Shown piece after piece: positions 16,167 through 58,935 of a stretch of DNA of 64,000 bases. Every line of letters begins with the position of its first letter. Positions within the stretch are counted from its first letter, which is position 1. The notes beneath the pieces are model-generated. The model saw only the letters and a program-made list of their open reading frames with translations, searched no databases and was not told where the DNA came from. This DNA comes from Geoglobus acetivorans (GTDB lineage Archaea; Halobacteriota; Archaeoglobi; Archaeoglobales; Archaeoglobaceae): positions 1,678,328 through 1,742,327 of the forward strand of contig NZ_CP087714.1 in the NCBI RefSeq assembly GCF_039641995.1. The letters run 5' to 3'. The translations under genes were made by a program, and so were the position numbers.

Positions 16167-17216
16167 ATGAAAAGGGCTTTGATAACCGGTGTGACGGGAC
16201 AAGATGGGGCATACCTTGCAAAGTTTCTCTTGGAAAAAGGGTATGAAGTATATGGAACTTATAGAAGACTTTCTTCGCCGAATTTCTGGAGATTGCAGTA
16301 TCTTGGCATTTTCGATAAAGTGAATCTGATACCAGTTGATCTCTCAGATACAAGTTCGATTTTTGAAGCTATAAAGACTTCCGAACCAGATGAGATCTAC
16401 CACTTGGCAGCGCAGAGTTTTGTTGGAGCCTCATTTGAACAGCCAATTGCAACTGGAGATATCTCTGGCTTAGCTGTAACGAGAATTTTAGAGGTAGTAA
16501 GGCAGGTAAACCCTGAAATAAAATTTTATCAGGCATCTACATCTGAATTGTATGGCAATTCAAGAGAAGAGGGCATATTAAATGAAGAGACGCCCTTTAG
16601 ACCCGCCTCACCTTACGCTGCAGCAAAATTATATGGCTACTGGACTACAAGGATATACAGGGATGCCTATGGAATATTTGCAGTGAATGGCATCCTGTTC
16701 AATCACGAATCCCCTTTAAGAGGTTTAGAATTTGTAACAAGGAAGATATCGAATGCTGTAGCGAAAATAGCTTTAGGGCTTGAGAAAGAATTGAGGCTAG
16801 GCAATTTAGAAGCAAAACGAGACTGGGGATATGCTCCAGAGTACGTTGAATGTATGTGGCTCATGCTCCAGCAGGATGAGCCTGACGATTACGTAATCGC
16901 CACTGGGGAGGCTCACAGTATCAGGAAATTCTGTGAGACTGCTTTTGACATTGTTGGTTTAGACTGGCAGGAATATGTCAGCGTTGATAAAAGGTTTATG
17001 CGACCATTGGATGTCAAGTATCTGTGCGGTGATTATTCAAAGGCTAAGAACAAGCTTGGCTGGGAACCAAGAACGAAGTTCAAGAAGCTAGTTGAAATAA
17101 TGGTCAAAGAAGACTTGAATAGATGGGAAAGATGGCTTAATGGCGAGAATTTCCCGTGGGACGCTCCGAATTATCCAAGTGAGGTAAAAATACTAACAAG
17201 GACTCTGAGAACATGA
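16167..17216 (+). CDS. gmd: GDP-mannose 4,6-dehydratase
   Basis: A 349-residue extended SDR. It has the NADP motif TGVTGQDGAYLAKFLLEKGYEVYG near the N-terminus, the family catalytic Thr/Glu in STSELYG, the YAAAK catalytic pair and NHESPLRG, which is diagnostic for the Gmd family. The enzyme converts GDP-mannose to GDP-4-keto-6-deoxymannose, the precursor of GDP-rhamnose, GDP-fucose and related 6-deoxyhexoses. A GGGGGGCTG ribosome binding site precedes the ATG. The stop overlaps the start of the HD hydrolase gene by four bases. Confidence 0.93.
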   Translation: MKRALITGVTGQDGAYLAKFLLEKGYEVYGTYRRLSSPNFWRLQYLGIFDKVNLIPVDLSDTSSIFEAIKTSEPDEIYHLAAQSFVGASFEQPIATGDISGLAVTRILEVVRQVNPEIKFYQASTSELYGNSREEGILNEETPFRPASPYAAAKLYGYWTTRIYRDAYGIFAVNGILFNHESPLRGLEFVTRKISNAVAKIALGLEKELRLGNLEAKRDWGYAPEYVECMWLMLQQDEPDDYVIATGEAHSIRKFCETAFDIVGLDWQEYVSVDKRFMRPLDVKYLCGDYSKAKNKLGWEPRTKFKKLVEIMVKEDLNRWERWLNGENFPWDAPNYPSEVKILTRTLRT

Positions 17217-37979: not shown

Positions 37980-38297
37980 TCACTCGACAACCGTAAAGTG
38001 CACCACCGTGACGAACTCCTCGTCCTTAACCTTCCCGTATATCCTATTCAGAGCCTCTATGAGCTCCTCCCTGCTCTCAAACCCGTCAAGCCTCGCATCG
38101 CTGTCTGTCAGCTCCCTAACCCTCTTCACAACGACCTTGTCAACCCTCGCCCTTGCGAAGGGCCTGCTCTCTGCGGTCAGGTCAACTATTCTCCCTACAG
38201 GGTACCTCTTTATGCCCTTTCTGACAGTCGTTACCTTTTTCCCGCTCATTATCTCCTCAACATACTCCGAATCGAAATTAATCCTCTTCTGCTCCAT
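37980..38297 (-). CDS. ASCH-domain protein
   Basis: A 105-residue protein of the ASCH family, a PUA-like beta barrel thought to bind RNA. INFDSEYVEEIMSGKKVTTVRKG at the N-terminus and YPVGRIVDL are the usual family blocks. The start lies 20 bases inside the end of tmcA, so the two genes are coupled, and an RNA-linked function alongside tRNA acetylation is plausible. No partner or substrate is known from the sequence. Confidence 0.85.
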   Translation of the reverse strand: MEQKRINFDSEYVEEIMSGKKVTTVRKGIKRYPVGRIVDLTAESRPFARARVDKVVVKRVRELTDSDARLDGFESREELIEALNRIYGKVKDEEFVTVVHFTVVE

Positions 38298-40584
38298 GGT
38301 ACCACTCCCACACCTTTTTAAGGGCCTTCAGCACTCTTTTGTATGACCTGCTATCCTCAATCTCCCTCCAGTTTTTCATCATCAGGCATTTCGCAACCAG
38401 AACCCTCTCCTCCCTCTCGTCAAGCCCGGCCTTATCGGTCCGGGTGTAGTAGTATCTGACAAGAGGTCTTGCTATGTCAGAAACGTACTCGAACAGGCTG
38501 TGGCCCTGGAAGTACTTCTTCATTCTCCGCCTTTCAACCCTCGTGAATTCCGGCTCGTATGCCTTTGCCTCCTTTCTGAGGCTCTTCAGGAGCCTTATTG
38601 CTGTCTCAAGCTCTATGTCTCTCAGCTCGTCTCCGAGATATTCTATCACTCTCCTGACGAACTCGGCGTTTATGTCGTCGATTCTGGACTGGATGTGCAT
38701 TTTGAGGGTCTTCAGGACTATAACCGTGTACTCTCCGGAAATCTCGTTCCTCTGGGGCGTGATGTGCACCGGCACGAACCCGTTCCTCTCCCAGAACCTC
38801 AGAAGCTCTGGAGAGACGCCAAAGCCACTCCCCGCCCAGTCCATGTCTTTCTCTGAGGCCCACTCGACGAGCTTCTGCAGTGCAAAGCTCCCTATGCCCA
38901 TGTCCATCACGGATGGGTGCGTTGCAATTCTCACGATCCTTATGCCGGTAAGCTCGGGAAAGCCATACTCCCAGTAGTGCTTCAGGATCAGGTCCGGGAT
39001 TATCTGACCCTTCGGCTTGTAGCCATCGGAGAGCTTTCTGACAGTCTCCTCGTCCATCCCACCTTCGACTGCAACGTGCAGCGAGCACACAGTCTTCCCG
39101 TTCACCTTGACCCTGAGCGGAATGTGGTTCGGCATGTCCAGCAGAATCACGAGGTCGGAGGGCCGGTTTCTGTAGTGGGCGAGAACGTAAATGCCGAAGA
39201 ACTCTCTGAGGAGGTCGTCATTTTCGATGAGCATGTTCTTGTCGAGCTCCTCGAACTCAAGCTCTCCGTTCCGTATTTTCTCCATGTCGCTCTCATCAAG
39301 CTCCACGGGCTGGGCATCAAGCATCAGAACGTCGTAGAGCCAGGCCTCGATTGGGTCGCCCCTGCCGTACCTTATTGGCTCCTTCAGCTCGATTTTCACG
39401 ATCTCGGTATTTTCGTCCTGCTCCAGCCTCTTCAGAAATCTGATTGCGAAACCCCTTCCCGTCCCCTCGTAACCGTGAACGGTTGTGGAGAATATCGCGT
39501 ACTTGACACCCTCAATTATCTTGAAAAGCACCGGAACGTCGATTGACGCAGCCTCGTCCACAATGACGATGTCAGCAAACTCACCCTCTCTCATGGCCCT
39601 TGCAGGAAGGGCATACTCGATCCTCGCATACCTGCTGTTGATAACCGTGGTGTTTCCACCGCTCTTCTTCTCGGAAAAGTTCTTCATCCCCTGCCTGACG
39701 AGGGCTTTTTTCAGGAACTCGAAGTATGTTTGCACGGACTGAACGTTCGGAGCCACGAGCAGAATCCTGACGGGCCTTTTCAGGGTCCTTTCCAGCCTGG
39801 ACACCAGATAAGGGGTGAGGATGCCGAGAACGGCGGTCTTCCCCCTCCCCCTGTTGGCCGTTATGACAACAGCCTTTCTCTCCCTCTCTTTTTCAAAAAA
39901 CGATTCGAAAACCTGAAGAACGCGAACCTGATCCTGAGTGGCGCAGAGCTTGTAGAGCTTTCTCTTTATTTCCTTCTTCTCCTCGGGAATTACGATCTTC
40001 TCTCTTGAGTCGACCCTCTTCTCAAACTCGTAATTTTTCAGAATCTTTCTTTTATCAGCGTCAAATATGATTATGCCCTCAGCAGTAAGGGTCTTGTTTA
40101 TGAATCTCCTGTAGAACCTCGGAACAACATCCTCAACAGTGTATGGCTCGCTGACCAGGTCCTCATGCCACTTCCCCTTCAGATTGAACCAGCTGTCGAT
40201 GTGGGGAGATACGGCGATGATGATCCCGCCTTCCCTGATCGTCTCGATCAGTATTCCCAGGTCGTTGGGGTGAAATCCTTCCGTCAGGTCTATGATCAGG
40301 CTGTCGTATGTCTGCCCCAGAACCTTCCAGCTGTCCTTGTAGTGGACGATCTCTCCGCTGAAGTACTTGCCTGCAAGCTCATTGAAGTAACTCCTCCCTG
40401 CAAGGAGAAGGCTCTCCTCAGGATTTTCCGATGATTTCAGGTGCTGCTTGTACGCTTTTTTGGCGAGCTTCATTATCCTGTCGTTCAGCTCTTTCGTGCA
40501 TATGAAAACAACATACCTGTGCCTGTTTTCCCTGGCAATTTTACTCGCCTTCTCGATTTCGAGCATGAGGTCCCTGACCGTCAT
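38278..40584 (-). CDS. tmcA: tRNA(Met) cytidine acetyltransferase
   Basis: A 768-residue RNA helicase-acetyltransferase fusion. It has an N-terminal DUF1726-type domain (about 1-200), a RecD-like ATPase with Walker A ANRGRGKTAVLG (about 240-252) and Walker B VDEAASIDVP, a GNAT domain (about 480-640) with the acetyl-CoA loop HPSVMDMGIGSFALQKLVEW, and a helical tail. TmcA makes N4-acetylcytidine using acetyl-CoA and ATP; archaeal homologues may also modify rRNA and other RNAs, as NAT10 does. Full length and all key motifs are kept. It is co-transcribed with the ASCH gene. Confidence 0.95.
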   Translation of the reverse strand: MTVRDLMLEIEKASKIARENRHRYVVFICTKELNDRIMKLAKKAYKQHLKSSENPEESLLLAGRSYFNELAGKYFSGEIVHYKDSWKVLGQTYDSLIIDLTEGFHPNDLGILIETIREGGIIIAVSPHIDSWFNLKGKWHEDLVSEPYTVEDVVPRFYRRFINKTLTAEGIIIFDADKRKILKNYEFEKRVDSREKIVIPEEKKEIKRKLYKLCATQDQVRVLQVFESFFEKERERKAVVITANRGRGKTAVLGILTPYLVSRLERTLKRPVRILLVAPNVQSVQTYFEFLKKALVRQGMKNFSEKKSGGNTTVINSRYARIEYALPARAMREGEFADIVIVDEAASIDVPVLFKIIEGVKYAIFSTTVHGYEGTGRGFAIRFLKRLEQDENTEIVKIELKEPIRYGRGDPIEAWLYDVLMLDAQPVELDESDMEKIRNGELEFEELDKNMLIENDDLLREFFGIYVLAHYRNRPSDLVILLDMPNHIPLRVKVNGKTVCSLHVAVEGGMDEETVRKLSDGYKPKGQIIPDLILKHYWEYGFPELTGIRIVRIATHPSVMDMGIGSFALQKLVEWASEKDMDWAGSGFGVSPELLRFWERNGFVPVHITPQRNEISGEYTVIVLKTLKMHIQSRIDDINAEFVRRVIEYLGDELRDIELETAIRLLKSLRKEAKAYEPEFTRVERRRMKKYFQGHSLFEYVSDIARPLVRYYYTRTDKAGLDEREERVLVAKCLMMKNWREIEDSRSYKRVLKALKKVWEWYHGAEED

Positions 40585-40683
40585 TCACAGGAAACTTTGC
40601 CTGTCTGCTTTTATATTTTCTTGAGTCTTTGTTCTGTGATATTCATGATAATATTGTATTGCGATTAATTTAGATATTATCTG

Positions 40684-40707
40684 ATAAATAATTACGTAAT
40701 TATTTAT
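40684..40707. promoter_or_regulatory. 24-bp perfect palindrome upstream of a small gene
   Basis: ATAAATAATTAC followed by its exact reverse complement GTAATTATTTAT forms a perfect 24-bp palindrome centred at 40695/40696. It ends about 13 bases before a strong TATA box (40721-40728), where an activator or repressor would act on the 36-residue membrane protein gene. It is far from the tmcA start on the other strand. Confidence 0.6.
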
Positions 40708-40720
40708 AGAATCAAAAAAT

Positions 40721-40728
40721 TATATAAA
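40721..40728 (+). promoter_or_regulatory. TATA box of the 36-residue protein gene
   Basis: TATATAAA preceded by the A-rich AAAAAAT. Transcription would start near 40750 and give a leader of about 25 bases containing the GAGGAGGG ribosome binding site at 40762-40769. Confidence 0.6.
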
Positions 40729-40775
40729 CACTAATTGATACATATTCGTACGTAAACTGCTGAGGAGGGATGAAA

Positions 40776-40886
40776 ATGGAGCTGGCACCACTCAAAAGTC
40801 TCGGGTTCATACTTGGACTGATAATCGGTTCAGCAATACTGGCTCTCGGAATAATTGCCCCGCTGGCCGTGTTTGTGGCGGGGTAA
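40776..40886 (+). CDS. 36-residue single-pass membrane protein
   Basis: A short gene: MELAPLKSLGFILGLIIG, then a hydrophobic run to VFVAG and TAA. The predicted helix spans most of residues 8-35. GAGGAGGG lies six bases before ATG 40776 (an earlier ATG at 40770 is too close to it). A strong TATA box and a 24-bp palindrome upstream argue for a real, well-expressed and regulated gene. No homologue is recognised. Possible roles are a small subunit of a membrane complex or a membrane-active peptide. Confidence 0.7.
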   Translation: MELAPLKSLGFILGLIIGSAILALGIIAPLAVFVAG

Positions 40887-40921: not shown

Positions 40922-41974
40922 TTACTTTTTTATGTATTTTTCAGCGGATTCAAGGGCTCTTGCGACAAGCTCTGCAGACAGATCCACGTCCTTCAGCGAT
41001 ATTACCTCTACGGGCGTGTGGATATATCTTGCAGGCACCGAAACAACACCCGTGGGTATTCCTGCCTTCGTCAGGTGGATTGCGGTTGCATCTGTCGTTC
41101 CGCCCTCTCCGACCTCCAGCTGATACTCTATTTCGTGCTTCTCTGCCGTCTCAACAAGCCAGTCCACGACAACTTTCGGAGCGATCAGACCTCTTCCCTG
41201 CGCATCGGCAACGGTTATCACCGGCCCCCAGTCGAGCTTAACGTCGAGCTTCACACTTTCAGCACCGGGATAGTCTGTTGAGGGAGCAACGTCAATTGCG
41301 AGGGCAACATCAGGCTCGAGTGCGAATGACGATGTTCTCGCACCCTTCAGCCCGACCTCTTCCTGCACGGTTCCGACTGCATAGATTGTTGCATCGCTCT
41401 CGGTTCTCCTGAGCGCCTCTATCATTATCGCAACACCGGCCCTGTCGTCAAATGCCTTGCCGGTAATCCTGTTCCCCAGCCTGACACATTCCCTGTCTAT
41501 GGTTACCGGAGTTCCGATGTCGATACCCATCTCCTTCACTTCCTCCTTGCTCTCTGCTCCAATGTCTATGAACATGTCCTTGATATCTATGATCTTCTTC
41601 CTCTCGTCATCCCTCATGAAGTGCGGAGGCTTGCACCCCAGCACACCGACGATTCTGCCCTTCTTTCCGTGGAGTATCACCCTCTGGTTAAGCGCTGTTT
41701 GACTGAACCACCCTCCTATGGGCGTTATCCTCAGAAATCCGCTGTCCTCTATGTACTTCACCATAAAACCGATCTCATCCATGTGTGCGGCTATCATCTG
41801 GCTGTAGTCTTTGCCGTTTTTCACACAGATTATGTTCCCCATCCTGTCGACCTTTATCTCGTCGACGTGGTCCTCAAGCTCGGCCTTTATTATGTCCCTT
41901 ATCTCGTCCTCATATCCGGAAATGCCGTGGGCATCACTCAGCTTTTTTACAAGTTCCTCTACATTCTCGTACAT
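40922..41974 (-). CDS. M42 family metallo-aminopeptidase (TET-type)
   Basis: A 350-residue M42 peptidase. Metal ligands and catalytic residues are visible as H in IAAHMDEIGF, D in KAFDDRAG, the EE pair in VGTVQEEVGLKGA, D in AIDVAPSTD and the final H in VPARYIHTPVEV. These enzymes form dodecameric tetrahedra and trim short peptides in the cytoplasm, or deblock N-termini. Length and motifs are complete. It is nine bases upstream of hxlB's stop on the same strand but functionally unrelated to it. Confidence 0.93.
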   Translation of the reverse strand: MYENVEELVKKLSDAHGISGYEDEIRDIIKAELEDHVDEIKVDRMGNIICVKNGKDYSQMIAAHMDEIGFMVKYIEDSGFLRITPIGGWFSQTALNQRVILHGKKGRIVGVLGCKPPHFMRDDERKKIIDIKDMFIDIGAESKEEVKEMGIDIGTPVTIDRECVRLGNRITGKAFDDRAGVAIMIEALRRTESDATIYAVGTVQEEVGLKGARTSSFALEPDVALAIDVAPSTDYPGAESVKLDVKLDWGPVITVADAQGRGLIAPKVVVDWLVETAEKHEIEYQLEVGEGGTTDATAIHLTKAGIPTGVVSVPARYIHTPVEVISLKDVDLSAELVARALESAEKYIKK

Positions 41975-47839: not shown

Positions 47840-47854
47840 GTTCGTACTGTTTTA

Positions 47855-47869
47855 CTGAGATATATTTAC
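47855..47869 (-). promoter_or_regulatory. pstS promoter element GTAAATATATCTCAG
   Basis: On the minus strand this 15-mer contains the TATA box of pstS, about 24 bases before the ATG. The divergent AbrB-PhoU gene has almost the same 15-mer (one mismatch) at the same distance from its own ATG. Matching flanks beyond the TATA core suggest a shared operator. Confidence 0.6.
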
Positions 47870-47948
47870 CTTATTGATATACAATACATTTGGCTATATC
47901 TTCACCATTACCATGCTTATCCACATATTCGCATCCTGATTTGGAAAA

Positions 47949-47963
47949 GTAAATATATATCAG
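47949..47963 (+). promoter_or_regulatory. AbrB-PhoU gene promoter element GTAAATATATATCAG
   Basis: Contains the TATA box about 25 bases before ATG 47980 and differs by one base from the element at 47855-47869 in the opposite orientation. The two are separated by 79 bases. Confidence 0.6.
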
Positions 47964-47979
47964 ATGTGAAATTGGGAGT

Positions 47980-48921
47980 ATGAAACGTGTGGCCAGAAAG
48001 ATATTTGTTAGCGGTTCGAGCTTTATAATCTCTCTCCCCAAGGAGTGGATAAGGGATAACTCACTTAAGGCTGGAGACACCGTTTTCTGTGACATTGGTA
48101 AGGACTCTCTCACGATAAGGCCGAGGCTCGACAAGGCCAATCCCAGAGAATCGAGGATTGATGAGGAAGAAGACGAAAAGATGCTTCTCAGGAAAATAAT
48201 ATCCCACTATCTTGCGGGTTACGAGACGATAAGGATTCCCGTTAATGAGAGGACGAGAAGGGCTGTATACAACGCAACCGCACTGCTCATAGGTGCTGAA
48301 ATTCTGGAGGATTCTGGAAACGAGATCTGGATGGAAGTGTTTGTGGATGAGAGAAGATTCAGGGTGGATGACCTGCTCGAGAGGATGGGCAACACCGTGA
48401 TCTCCATGCTGAAGGACTTCAGAAAGAATCTGGTTGAATACGACCCCGCATCCATAGAAGTAATCCTTCAGAGAGAAAATGAGGTTGACAGGCTTTATTT
48501 TCTGATATTGAGGATTCTCAAATCTGCCCTTAGGTACTCTGACATTCTGGAAGTTCTCGATCTATCTCCCATAGAAATCCTGGGAACGAGGACCGCTATA
48601 AAGAACATCGAGAGGGTTGGAGACCACCTCCACGGGATGACCTCCAATCTCAGGATGTGCGAGACCAATCTGATGGAGCTTGAAAAGCCCGCAGAAGAGG
48701 CTGAAACTGCCTTCAGGCTTTCCCTAACCTCCCTTTTCAAGCGGGACGAGGCAATAGCAAGGGACGTGTTTGCGATCGCAGACTCGTTTGGTGTGCCGAG
48801 GATAAAGCCCGCTGAGATGAAGGACATGGTTCTGGTTTCCGGCCTGTTGAGCGGTCTGGAGAGGATTGTGGGATACAGCGAGGACATAGCCGAGATAACG
48901 CTGAACCTTGCGACACCGTGA
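47980..48921 (+). CDS. AbrB-PhoU fusion regulator of phosphate uptake
   Basis: A 313-residue protein. The N-terminal 47 residues form a SpoVT/AbrB DNA-binding hairpin (ARKIFVSGSSFIISLPKEWI then RDNSLKAGDTV). The rest is a PhoU-like two-repeat helical bundle (blocks NTVISMLKDFRKNL and TAIKNIERVGDHLHGMTSNL). Archaeal proteins of this type probably regulate pst genes in response to phosphate, with the PhoU part sensing PstB or metal-phosphate. It is divergent from pstS, and both promoters carry a near-identical element, fitting autoregulation and pst control. Confidence 0.9.
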   Translation: MKRVARKIFVSGSSFIISLPKEWIRDNSLKAGDTVFCDIGKDSLTIRPRLDKANPRESRIDEEEDEKMLLRKIISHYLAGYETIRIPVNERTRRAVYNATALLIGAEILEDSGNEIWMEVFVDERRFRVDDLLERMGNTVISMLKDFRKNLVEYDPASIEVILQRENEVDRLYFLILRILKSALRYSDILEVLDLSPIEILGTRTAIKNIERVGDHLHGMTSNLRMCETNLMELEKPAEEAETAFRLSLTSLFKRDEAIARDVFAIADSFGVPRIKPAEMKDMVLVSGLLSGLERIVGYSEDIAEITLNLATP

Positions 48922-48985
48922 TGTTAAAATATTATAAATCGTAATTGACAGCAATTCTTAAATTACGAGGCTGTGAAGGGGGGCC

Positions 48986-50185
48986 ATGAAGAACATATTT
49001 GTTGAGGAGTTAGTTCACACTCCTGTTGAGAATCAAAAGGTCGAAATTGTTGAAAGGAAGGGTATCGGTCATCCTGATTCAATAGCTGATGGTATCGCAG
49101 AGGCGATGAGCAGGGCACTGAGCAAGGAGTACCTCAAGAGAGTTGGGGTAGTGCTGCACCACAACACCGATGAGACCCAGATCGTTGCAGGGAGGGCGAA
49201 AACCGCATTTGGTGGAGGAGAGGTCATACAGCCCATATACATTCTCCTTGTTGGCAGGGCAACGAAGTACTTCGACGGCATAGACATTCCAGCTGACCGG
49301 GTTGCCCTCAAGGCAGCAAAGGACTACGTGAGAAGTGCCATGAGGAATCTCGACCCTGAAACAGACATAGTATTCGACGTGAGGCTTGGTGAGGGCTCAA
49401 CTGATCTGAAAGAGGTCTTTGAGAGGAAGGGTGGCAAGGCACCACTTTCGAACGATACGAGTTTTGGCATCGGCTTTGCCCCGTTCACCGAAACGGAGAA
49501 TCTGGTCTACAACGTTGAGAGAAGAATATATGAGGAGTTCAGAAAGAAGGAGAAGGCCATTGGCGAGGACGTCAAGGTAATGGGCCTGAGAGAGGGGGAT
49601 AAAATCAGGCTCACAATAGCCTGTGCCTTCGTTGACAGACATGTGTCCAGTGTGAAGGAGTACCTTGCGGTGAAGGAGGAGCTTACGGACTTTGTGAGGG
49701 GAATCTCTTCAGAGTACACCTCCAGAGAGGTTGAGGTTGCCGTCAACACGGCCGACAACATTGACAAGGAAGTCGTGTACCTCACGGTCACGGGGACCTC
49801 TGCCGAGAACGGAGATGATGGAAGTGTTGGCAGGGGCAACAGGTGCAACGGCCTGATAACTCCGGGCAGACCCATGTCCATGGAGGCATCGAGCGGAAAG
49901 AACCCGATAAACCACGTCGGAAAGATATACAACCTCCTCGCAAACAGGATTGCCTGGGACTGCTACGAGGCCATCGAGGGCATCAAGGAGGTCTACGTCC
50001 GCATTCTCTCCCAGATCGGAAAGCCAATTGACGAACCCAAGGCTCTCAGCATTCAGATAGTCCCCGAGAACGGATACGATGTGGAGAGGATGGAGTCCAA
50101 GGCGAGAACCGTCGCGGATGAATGGCTCAACGACATCACGAAGATAACCGATATGGTCATCAACGGGGAACTCAAAACATTCTAA
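48986..50185 (+). CDS. mat: Archaeal S-adenosylmethionine synthetase
   Basis: A 399-residue methionine adenosyltransferase of the archaeal family, which shares little sequence with bacterial MetK. Characteristic segments are [20 protein letters not shown] near residue 24, [13 protein letters not shown], and [20 protein letters not shown] in the C-terminal half. It makes SAM from methionine and ATP. The ATG has AGGGGGG upstream, and TTATAAATC near 48933 is the likely TATA box. Confidence 0.97.
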
Positions 50186-57647: not shown

Positions 57648-57698
57648 ACTAATTTCACTTTTTTACTGTCCAATTTTCAGAAAAGTATTTATACTAAT

Positions 57699-57711
57699 TT
57701 TACGGATTAAA
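57699..57711. promoter_or_regulatory. Imperfect inverted repeat upstream of bcrC
   Basis: TTTAC-GGA-TTAAA, matching nine of the ten fixed bases of the operator-like motif seen at 55708 and 56445. The wider sequence AATTTTA-N5-TAAAATT is itself a perfect 7-bp inverted repeat. It follows a TATA-like GTATTTATACTA (about 57685-57696), so it covers the likely transcription start of the bcr operon. Confidence 0.45.
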
Positions 57712-57753
57712 ATTTGTGGCAGTTGATAATCTTACAGGTGAGGTGGTTGAGTG

Positions 57754-58935
57754 ATGACTACGTCTGTCGATGATATGCCCCAGATGAAGAAATTCAGGGA
57801 ATGGTTCGAAAACAGGCACGAATATGCGAAGAAGTGGAAGGAAAAAACAGGTGGCAGGGTCGTCGGCTACTACTGCACCTACGTACCTGAAGAGATACTG
57901 TACGCGGCAGAAATCCTCCCCGTGAGAGTTCTCGGATCACATGAGCCGGAGAGCATAACCAGGCCATATCTTCACGATATGTACTGTCCGTTCTGCCATG
58001 ACACTCTCGCCCAGGGATTGCAGGGCAGGTACAACTACCTTGACGGTGTTACACTTGCTCAGTCATGCCTCCACATGAGACAGTCGTATTTCAGCTTCGC
58101 AGACAGGGTGCCGAACATTGAATGGAGCTATTATCTGCCGTTTCCCCATGGAGTGAACAACCCTCATGCAGGCGATTTTGCAAAACACGAGTTTGAGAAA
58201 TTCAAGGAATCTGTCGAGGAATGGACTGGCGCAAAAATTTCCGATTCTGATCTTGACAGAGCGATTGAAGTTTACAACAGGAGCAGGGAACTTCTGACAA
58301 AGGTGTTCGAGCTGAGGAAGGCCGAGAATCCCCCCATTACCGGACTGCATGCAATGCTGATTGTCGTGTCTTCACAGGTGGTTGACAAGGAGGAACACAA
58401 CGAGGTTCTGGAGAGCTTCCTGGAGGAGGTTGCCGAAGTTGAACCTGACAGGGAGGTTGGGACGAGGCTGATGCTCATAGGCAGTGAGGATTACGATATC
58501 GAGCTTTTCGAGCTGATCGAGTACGGGATGAGCTACCCTGCAACGTTTGTCTTCGAGGAAAACTGCACGGGTTCGAGGTATTTCTGGGGGGCTGTGGAGA
58601 ATGGTGGAGACAGGATAAAGGCCCTTGCCGAGAGGTACGTTTACAGGGTCCCGTGTCCTGCAAAGGACTGGGCAAGGGGCGACTTCTTTGGAAGGAGGAG
58701 GTTCCAGTTTATTGAGAACGTCATAAAGGAGTGGAACGTTGATGCCGTGATCATCGCCCAGATGAAGTTCTGCGATCCTCACGAGCTTGACATACCCTCT
58801 CTCAGAGACATGCTTGACAGGATGGGTGTCAGACACCTCCATCTCGAGCTTGACCTCACGCAGCCTGTTGGGCAGTTCAGAACGAGAGTCGAGGCCATGA
58901 TTGAGGCCATGGGTGAGGAGGACCTGTTTATTTAG
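57754..58935 (+). CDS. bcrC: Benzoyl-CoA reductase subunit C (2-hydroxyacyl-CoA dehydratase family)
   Basis: A 393-residue subunit of the active-site heterodimer of ATP-dependent benzoyl-CoA reductase. Features are GRVVGYYCTYVPEEILYAAE, then DMYCPFCHDTLAQGL and LAQSCLHMRQSY, which contain cysteines likely to ligate a [4Fe-4S] cluster, and ARGDFFGRRRF near the C-terminus. The enzyme dearomatises benzoyl-CoA to the dienoyl-CoA with two low-potential electrons and two ATP. AGGTGGT lies six bases before ATG 57754, which is preferred over GTG 57751. It heads the C-B-D-A operon. Length favours BcrC (BzdN) over BcrB. Confidence 0.9.
   Translation: MTTSVDDMPQMKKFREWFENRHEYAKKWKEKTGGRVVGYYCTYVPEEILYAAEILPVRVLGSHEPESITRPYLHDMYCPFCHDTLAQGLQGRYNYLDGVTLAQSCLHMRQSYFSFADRVPNIEWSYYLPFPHGVNNPHAGDFAKHEFEKFKESVEEWTGAKISDSDLDRAIEVYNRSRELLTKVFELRKAENPPITGLHAMLIVVSSQVVDKEEHNEVLESFLEEVAEVEPDREVGTRLMLIGSEDYDIELFELIEYGMSYPATFVFEENCTGSRYFWGAVENGGDRIKALAERYVYRVPCPAKDWARGDFFGRRRFQFIENVIKEWNVDAVIIAQMKFCDPHELDIPSLRDMLDRMGVRHLHLELDLTQPVGQFRTRVEAMIEAMGEEDLFI

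Follow-up and report, generated by a model that had tools for sequence, protein, structure and literature searches.

The gap between the tmcA gene and an M42 family aminopeptidase gene in Geoglobus acetivorans very probably holds a real protein-coding gene, judging from its sequence and that of its relatives, and this gene, coding for a 36-residue membrane peptide, is preceded by what is almost certainly a functional promoter. We consider it about an even bet that the product is a microprotein specific to this lineage, which spans the membrane once, has an accessory or regulatory role, and is made from its own promoter, probably controlled by an activator that binds upstream of the TATA box. 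The window, i.e. the whole 64-kb stretch of DNA analysed, begins at position 1678328 of a genome of 1,903,522 bases in a single contig (G000). The two congeners most used for comparison, G001 and G006, have 1,860,815 and 1,770,093 bases, respectively. The gap is 337 bp long and holds one plausible plus-strand gene, with the following features and neighbours:

38278..40584, minus strand: tmcA, tRNA(Met) cytidine acetyltransferase, the divergent neighbour, identified by family search.
40684..40707, no strand: 24-bp perfect palindrome ATAAATAATTACGTAATTATTTAT, exact in G001, with 20 of 24 aligned bases in G006.
40700..40726 (genome 1719027-1719053), plus strand: promoter block TTATTTATA-N4-CAAAAAATTWTATA, of fixed spacing, overlapping the 3' arm of the palindrome and the TATA box.
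40720..40727, plus strand: TATA box TTATATAA, in a block kept in three of three genomes, with 0 control hits.
40729..40745, plus strand: motif CACTAAT-NN-ATAC-N-TAT, downstream of the TATA box, exact at the peptide gene in three genomes.
40762..40769, plus strand: Shine-Dalgarno-type motif GAGGAGGG, 6 nt before the ATG at 40776, with GGAGG kept in G001 and G006.
40776..40886, plus strand: peptide gene, TAA included, 36 residues, single-helix membrane protein (helix 4-35), in three genomes with start and frame kept.
40922..41974, minus strand: M42 family aminopeptidase, the convergent neighbour, identified by family search.

The coordinates given in the initial annotation for the short gene, its ribosome site, the TATA box and the palindrome all hold. 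Two in-frame ATGs are present, at 40770 and 40776. Since the first directly follows the Shine-Dalgarno motif and has no counterpart in G001 or G006, we considered 40776 as the right start, from which the 36-residue sequence MELAPLKSLGFILGLIIGSAILALGIIAPLAVFVAG is read. The M42 gene, on the other strand, ends 35 bp past the stop at 40886, and tmcA has, by eye, a TATA-like box of its own inside the gap.

The start codon and the GGAGG of the peptide gene are kept in both G001 and G006. Between G000 and G006 the gene differs at 11, 4 and 22 sites in codon positions 1, 2 and 3, respectively (dN 0.33 and dS 1.28, NG86), third positions holding 22 of the 37 base differences (p ~0.001, binomial test). 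The peak of hydropathy over 19 residues is almost the same in the two peptides (2.63 in the window, 2.59 in G006), and an ATG reading frame of at least 34 residues with a comparable hydrophobic stretch arose in 28 of 5000 shufflings of the gap. AlphaFold2, run on a thin alignment of three sequences, gave one helix at residues 4-35 with a mean pLDDT of 89.6, which is the expected outcome for a hydrophobic peptide. With fewer than 50 residues and one hydrophobic helix, the peptide has the size and build of a single-span membrane microprotein, which is a kind of protein and not a homology family. Antisense frame 1 is also open here, with 18 of its 33 residues conserved (18 of 34 in the sense frame) and with third positions that coincide with the sense ones; its similarity score is lower (67 vs 100), and it has neither ribosome motif, nor common start, nor promoter. 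The codon changes, together with the preservation of the helix, would say that the peptide is translated. As for the small membrane protein with its own promoter described initially, the peptide, its start, its ribosome site and the promoter block are kept in three genomes, which goes against part of what had been named initially as a refutation, while its translation is suggested by comparison of sequences.

These same data bear on whether the transcript itself, as a small RNA or a leader under a strong promoter, is the product. The control region is strongly conserved while the peptide is lineage-limited, as would be expected in that case. The start codon, the Shine-Dalgarno motif and the frame are kept, however, with differences concentrated at third positions; the fold of the transcript region is not unusual (z -0.99), and Rfam gives no family at the locus at the gathering score. 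We therefore regard an RNA product as very unlikely.

As the initial annotation had proposed, the peptide was sought in related genomes. Orthologues were found in G001 (97% identity) and G006 (53% identity), in the same place and orientation between tmcA and the M42 gene as in G000, so that it is present in three of seven genomes of the genus Geoglobus. The wider searches returned the same three convincing genomes each time: three of the five with E up to 10 in a protein search of 40 genomes, three of 14 with E up to 10 in an order-wide search of 57 genomes, and three of four with E up to 0.01 in a phylum-wide search of 392 genomes, the last two with a three-row profile. The weak distant matches (two genomes in the protein search, 11 of 57 in the profile search) were rejected as short; those in L042 and L046, examined in detail, look like chance, and the one in G079 (E 0.0016) is short and lies inside a 297-residue ORF. 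One scan of genome contigs gave 17 pattern matches, none confirmed at a threshold that is severe for 36 residues. Among the genomes searched, the peptide gene is confined to three related iron-breathing, heat-loving archaea. That it has no recognised family was confirmed: Pfam gave 0 families and NCBIfam one sub-threshold match only, to the Myrrcad domain NF033158 (13 bits against a cut-off of 33). A match to a solved structure at E 0.6 was dismissed, and among the papers listed in a literature search none concerned this peptide.

In G002-G005 tmcA, at its upstream end, and the M42 gene, at its 3' end, lie directly side by side, with gaps of roughly -1 to 45 bases by eye, against about 337 bases in G000 and G001 and about 980 in G006. 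These four genomes are drafts of 30-570 contigs, yet the M42-tmcA junction is present and empty in each of them. The abutment of the flanking genes in four congeners implies that the unit was either inserted once or lost elsewhere. The identities of TmcA to that of the window (92% in G001, 78% in G006, 74% in G002, 71% in G005, 69% in G004 and 68% in G003) are compatible with a single gain in the ancestor shared by the three carriers, or with loss in the others. Since it is missing from four of seven genomes of the genus, the peptide is dispensable.

A unit of patchy occurrence, sited between genes that abut in G002-G005 and coding for a small hydrophobic single helix, could also be a membrane-active toxin, or the remnant of a toxin-antitoxin or mobile unit inserted between two operon genes and kept by addiction instead of through service to a host complex. 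In G006 the peptide gene is followed, on its own strand, by a charged frame (89 residues, L003 1178-1447, minus), but this frame has no Pfam family at threshold. At the window locus, moreover, there is no antitoxin or antisense RNA partner, the next gene ending 35 bp on, and Rfam finds in the 64 kb only one tRNA (tRNA-Ser). Copies of the peptide are absent from 50,697 phage records and 72,556 plasmid records, and none of the 23 pattern matches from one scan of viral contigs was confirmed, the threshold again being severe for 36 residues. On balance we consider a toxin or mobile remnant improbable.

Turning to the promoter of the putative microprotein gene, the pattern TTATTTATA-N4-CAAAAAATTWTATA at up to 3 mismatches has one match each in G000, G001 and G006, always at this place, and 0 control matches; as the pattern was derived from the alignment of these same three promoters, this measures its uniqueness and is not an independent discovery. 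When up to 2 mismatches are allowed, the motif CACTAAT-NN-ATAC-N-TAT occurs no more often than its control. Given the position of the TATA box, transcription would be expected to start at about 40746-40752. A motif of the start region, CACTAATNNATACNTAT, was also sought elsewhere, and its 4 hits in G000 at up to 2 mismatches, against 10 for the control, were attributed to chance; a site with 1 mismatch in L056/L057 lies inside another reading frame. A sigma-70 promoter scan was set aside as not applicable to archaea.

Among 27,196 bases aligned with G001, the 110-base run of identity at 40647-40756 is the fourth longest, although in the 5' part of tmcA 92 of 333 third positions are changed with respect to the same genome. 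The two longest stretches identical between window and G001 are 57658-57830 (173 bases), which includes the DNA upstream of a 2-hydroxyglutaryl-CoA dehydratase-like gene, and 48874-49029 (156 bases). In G006 the DNA from tmcA to the palindrome has largely diverged (42 of 99 bases kept), and the right half of the palindrome continues unbroken into the promoter block. Precisely, we listed 23 intergenic stretches, of which 15 were unaligned and 1 partly aligned; among the 7 fully alignable ones of at least 80 bp, the peptide-gene gap ranks second in identity to G001. Two other intergenic regions of the window, taken as controls, are similarly conserved with respect to G001 (98% for 57648-57750, 94% for 47840-47979), so that strong conservation of the control region is not special to the peptide gene in G000 and G001. 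With this second rank among seven alignable stretches, the initial claim of more regulatory signal than at most genes in the window holds only in part.

The 24-bp perfect palindrome was verified at 40684-40707, and the next-longest perfect palindrome in the 64-kb window has 14 bp. One of 14 bp, with the same ATTACGTAAT core, lies at 16886-16899 inside a GDP-mannose dehydratase gene and is probably due to chance. The AT-rich upstream region (185 nt) was simulated 20,000 times with a first-order Markov model, and a palindrome of at least 24 bp appeared in 3 of the simulated regions and one of at least 20 bp in 25. In any single region such a palindrome is therefore rare, but it is less remarkable when all the intergenic regions of a genome, roughly a thousand or more, are considered. 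Its DNA can form a hairpin (z -2.72), as is true of any palindrome. Looked for in the relatives, as had been suggested, it is perfect in the closer one, G001, and its full dyad is gone in G006 (20 of 24 bases), where the retained bases are mostly those of the TATA-side half. In its own genome no second copy was found with up to 3 mismatches over 22 bp or with 1 mismatch over 16 bp, and we accordingly discarded it as a recurrent regulon motif, no regulon being visible. An imperfect look-alike is found in G006 near 420636, where a 246-residue ORF lies downstream of it.

The centre of the palindrome (40695.5) is 28 bp upstream of that of the TATA box (40723.5), which places the dyad upstream of BRE/TATA, where operators of archaeal activators lie. 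This position makes an activator recruiting TBP/TFB likelier than a repressor. In Thermococcus kodakarensis, the sites of the activator Tar (TK0271) lie upstream of BRE/TATA as well (PMC6737238), and the palindrome of the peptide gene resembles them in this respect; Tar sites have the form TGGACA-N8-TGTCCA and occur at three operons (PMC6737238), whereas here one AT-rich continuous palindrome lies at one gene. We consider a regulator site moderately probable. Alternatively, the palindrome could be an AT-rich melting or bending element, or a by-product of AT drift, which aids the promoter without being an operator, the gene being constitutive. This is consistent with the loss of the full dyad in G006, where the TATA-side half, TTATTTATA and its spacing are kept, with the single genomic copy, and with the base composition of the region (27% G+C), a palindrome this long having been met in 3 of 20,000 simulated regions. 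The identity of 24 of 24 bases between G000 and G001, within the 110-base identical run, argues against it, and we hold this second explanation to be possible but clearly the less likely.

Under the preferred interpretation of an accessory microprotein, the locus would be a self-contained single-gene unit, made of an AT-rich upstream control site, an archaeal promoter of the TATA type, a short leader that carries the Shine-Dalgarno motif, and the 36-residue peptide. Expression would be set at the promoter, most likely through a dimeric regulator occupying the palindrome, which immediately precedes the TATA box. The peptide would insert in the membrane as one transmembrane helix, at about residues 8-35, and its conserved, basic N-terminal segment, M(E/D)xAPLKSLGF, would face the cytoplasm. 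By the positive-inside rule, basic residues are linked to the cytoplasmic side, and the one lysine close to the N-terminus would place that end of the peptide in the cytoplasm. The helix would then pack laterally on a larger membrane complex and raise, damp or stabilise its activity. The most conserved part of the peptide is M(E/D)xAPLKSLGFI at the N-terminus, which, on conservation, is the most likely place of contact with a partner. We give even chances to a role as accessory or regulatory subunit.

Small proteins of this build are known in bacteria, where CydX, KdpF, AcrZ and MgrB are single-span accessory or regulatory microproteins that pack on large membrane proteins. The peptide is like them in having 30-50 residues, one transmembrane helix and a gene of its own; they differ in being bacterial and in having known partners, and no sequence relation to the peptide is expected. 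In archaea, MtrR of Methanosarcina mazei is a 49-residue small protein located at the cytoplasmic membrane that modulates the Mtr complex and is transcriptionally induced, with H2 as the inducer (PMC13370731). Both are archaeal small membrane proteins, the complex-modulating role being proposed here by analogy; MtrR differs in that its target (the Mtr complex) and its inducer (H2) are known (PMC13370731).

The anatomy of the peptide agrees with the initial suggestion of a missing small subunit of a complex. No partner was found, however, and absence from four of seven genus genomes indicates that it does not belong to the core of a complex universal in Archaeoglobi. The suggestion of a stress- or metal-induced peptide finds no backing, as the flanks of the gene offer neither a regulator nor a metal ligand nor a stress gene, the neighbours being an RNA modification enzyme and a peptidase, and the peptide has neither Cys nor His. 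A nearby gene at 47980-48921 codes for a PhoU-domain protein with a MazE/AbrB-type DNA-binding N-terminus and is divergent from a phosphate-binding-protein-like gene; it was rejected as the regulator, its upstream region sharing just one 9-mer, ACATATTCG, with the peptide start region. A bolder version, in which a recently acquired or newborn membrane subunit with a single-gene switch was put into a two-gene operon and tunes an energy-metabolism complex of these iron-reducing archaea, seems to us a long shot. The peptide is for now one of many orphan small proteins. Its gene is nonetheless a clean archaeal small-protein gene with a visible origin, and the locus could be used to study how membrane microproteins restricted to one lineage originate together with a promoter of their own.

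Elsewhere in the window, the segment 1077-37595 (~36.5 kb), lying between position 1077 and the 3' end of the tRNA-Ser gene (37596), has no DNA counterpart at the corresponding place in G001. The tRNA end was not found repeated directly on the far side of the segment. In G001 the tRNA and the far flank of the segment are about 110 bases apart, and in the window the contents of the segment include a glycosyltransferase and the GDP-mannose dehydratase.
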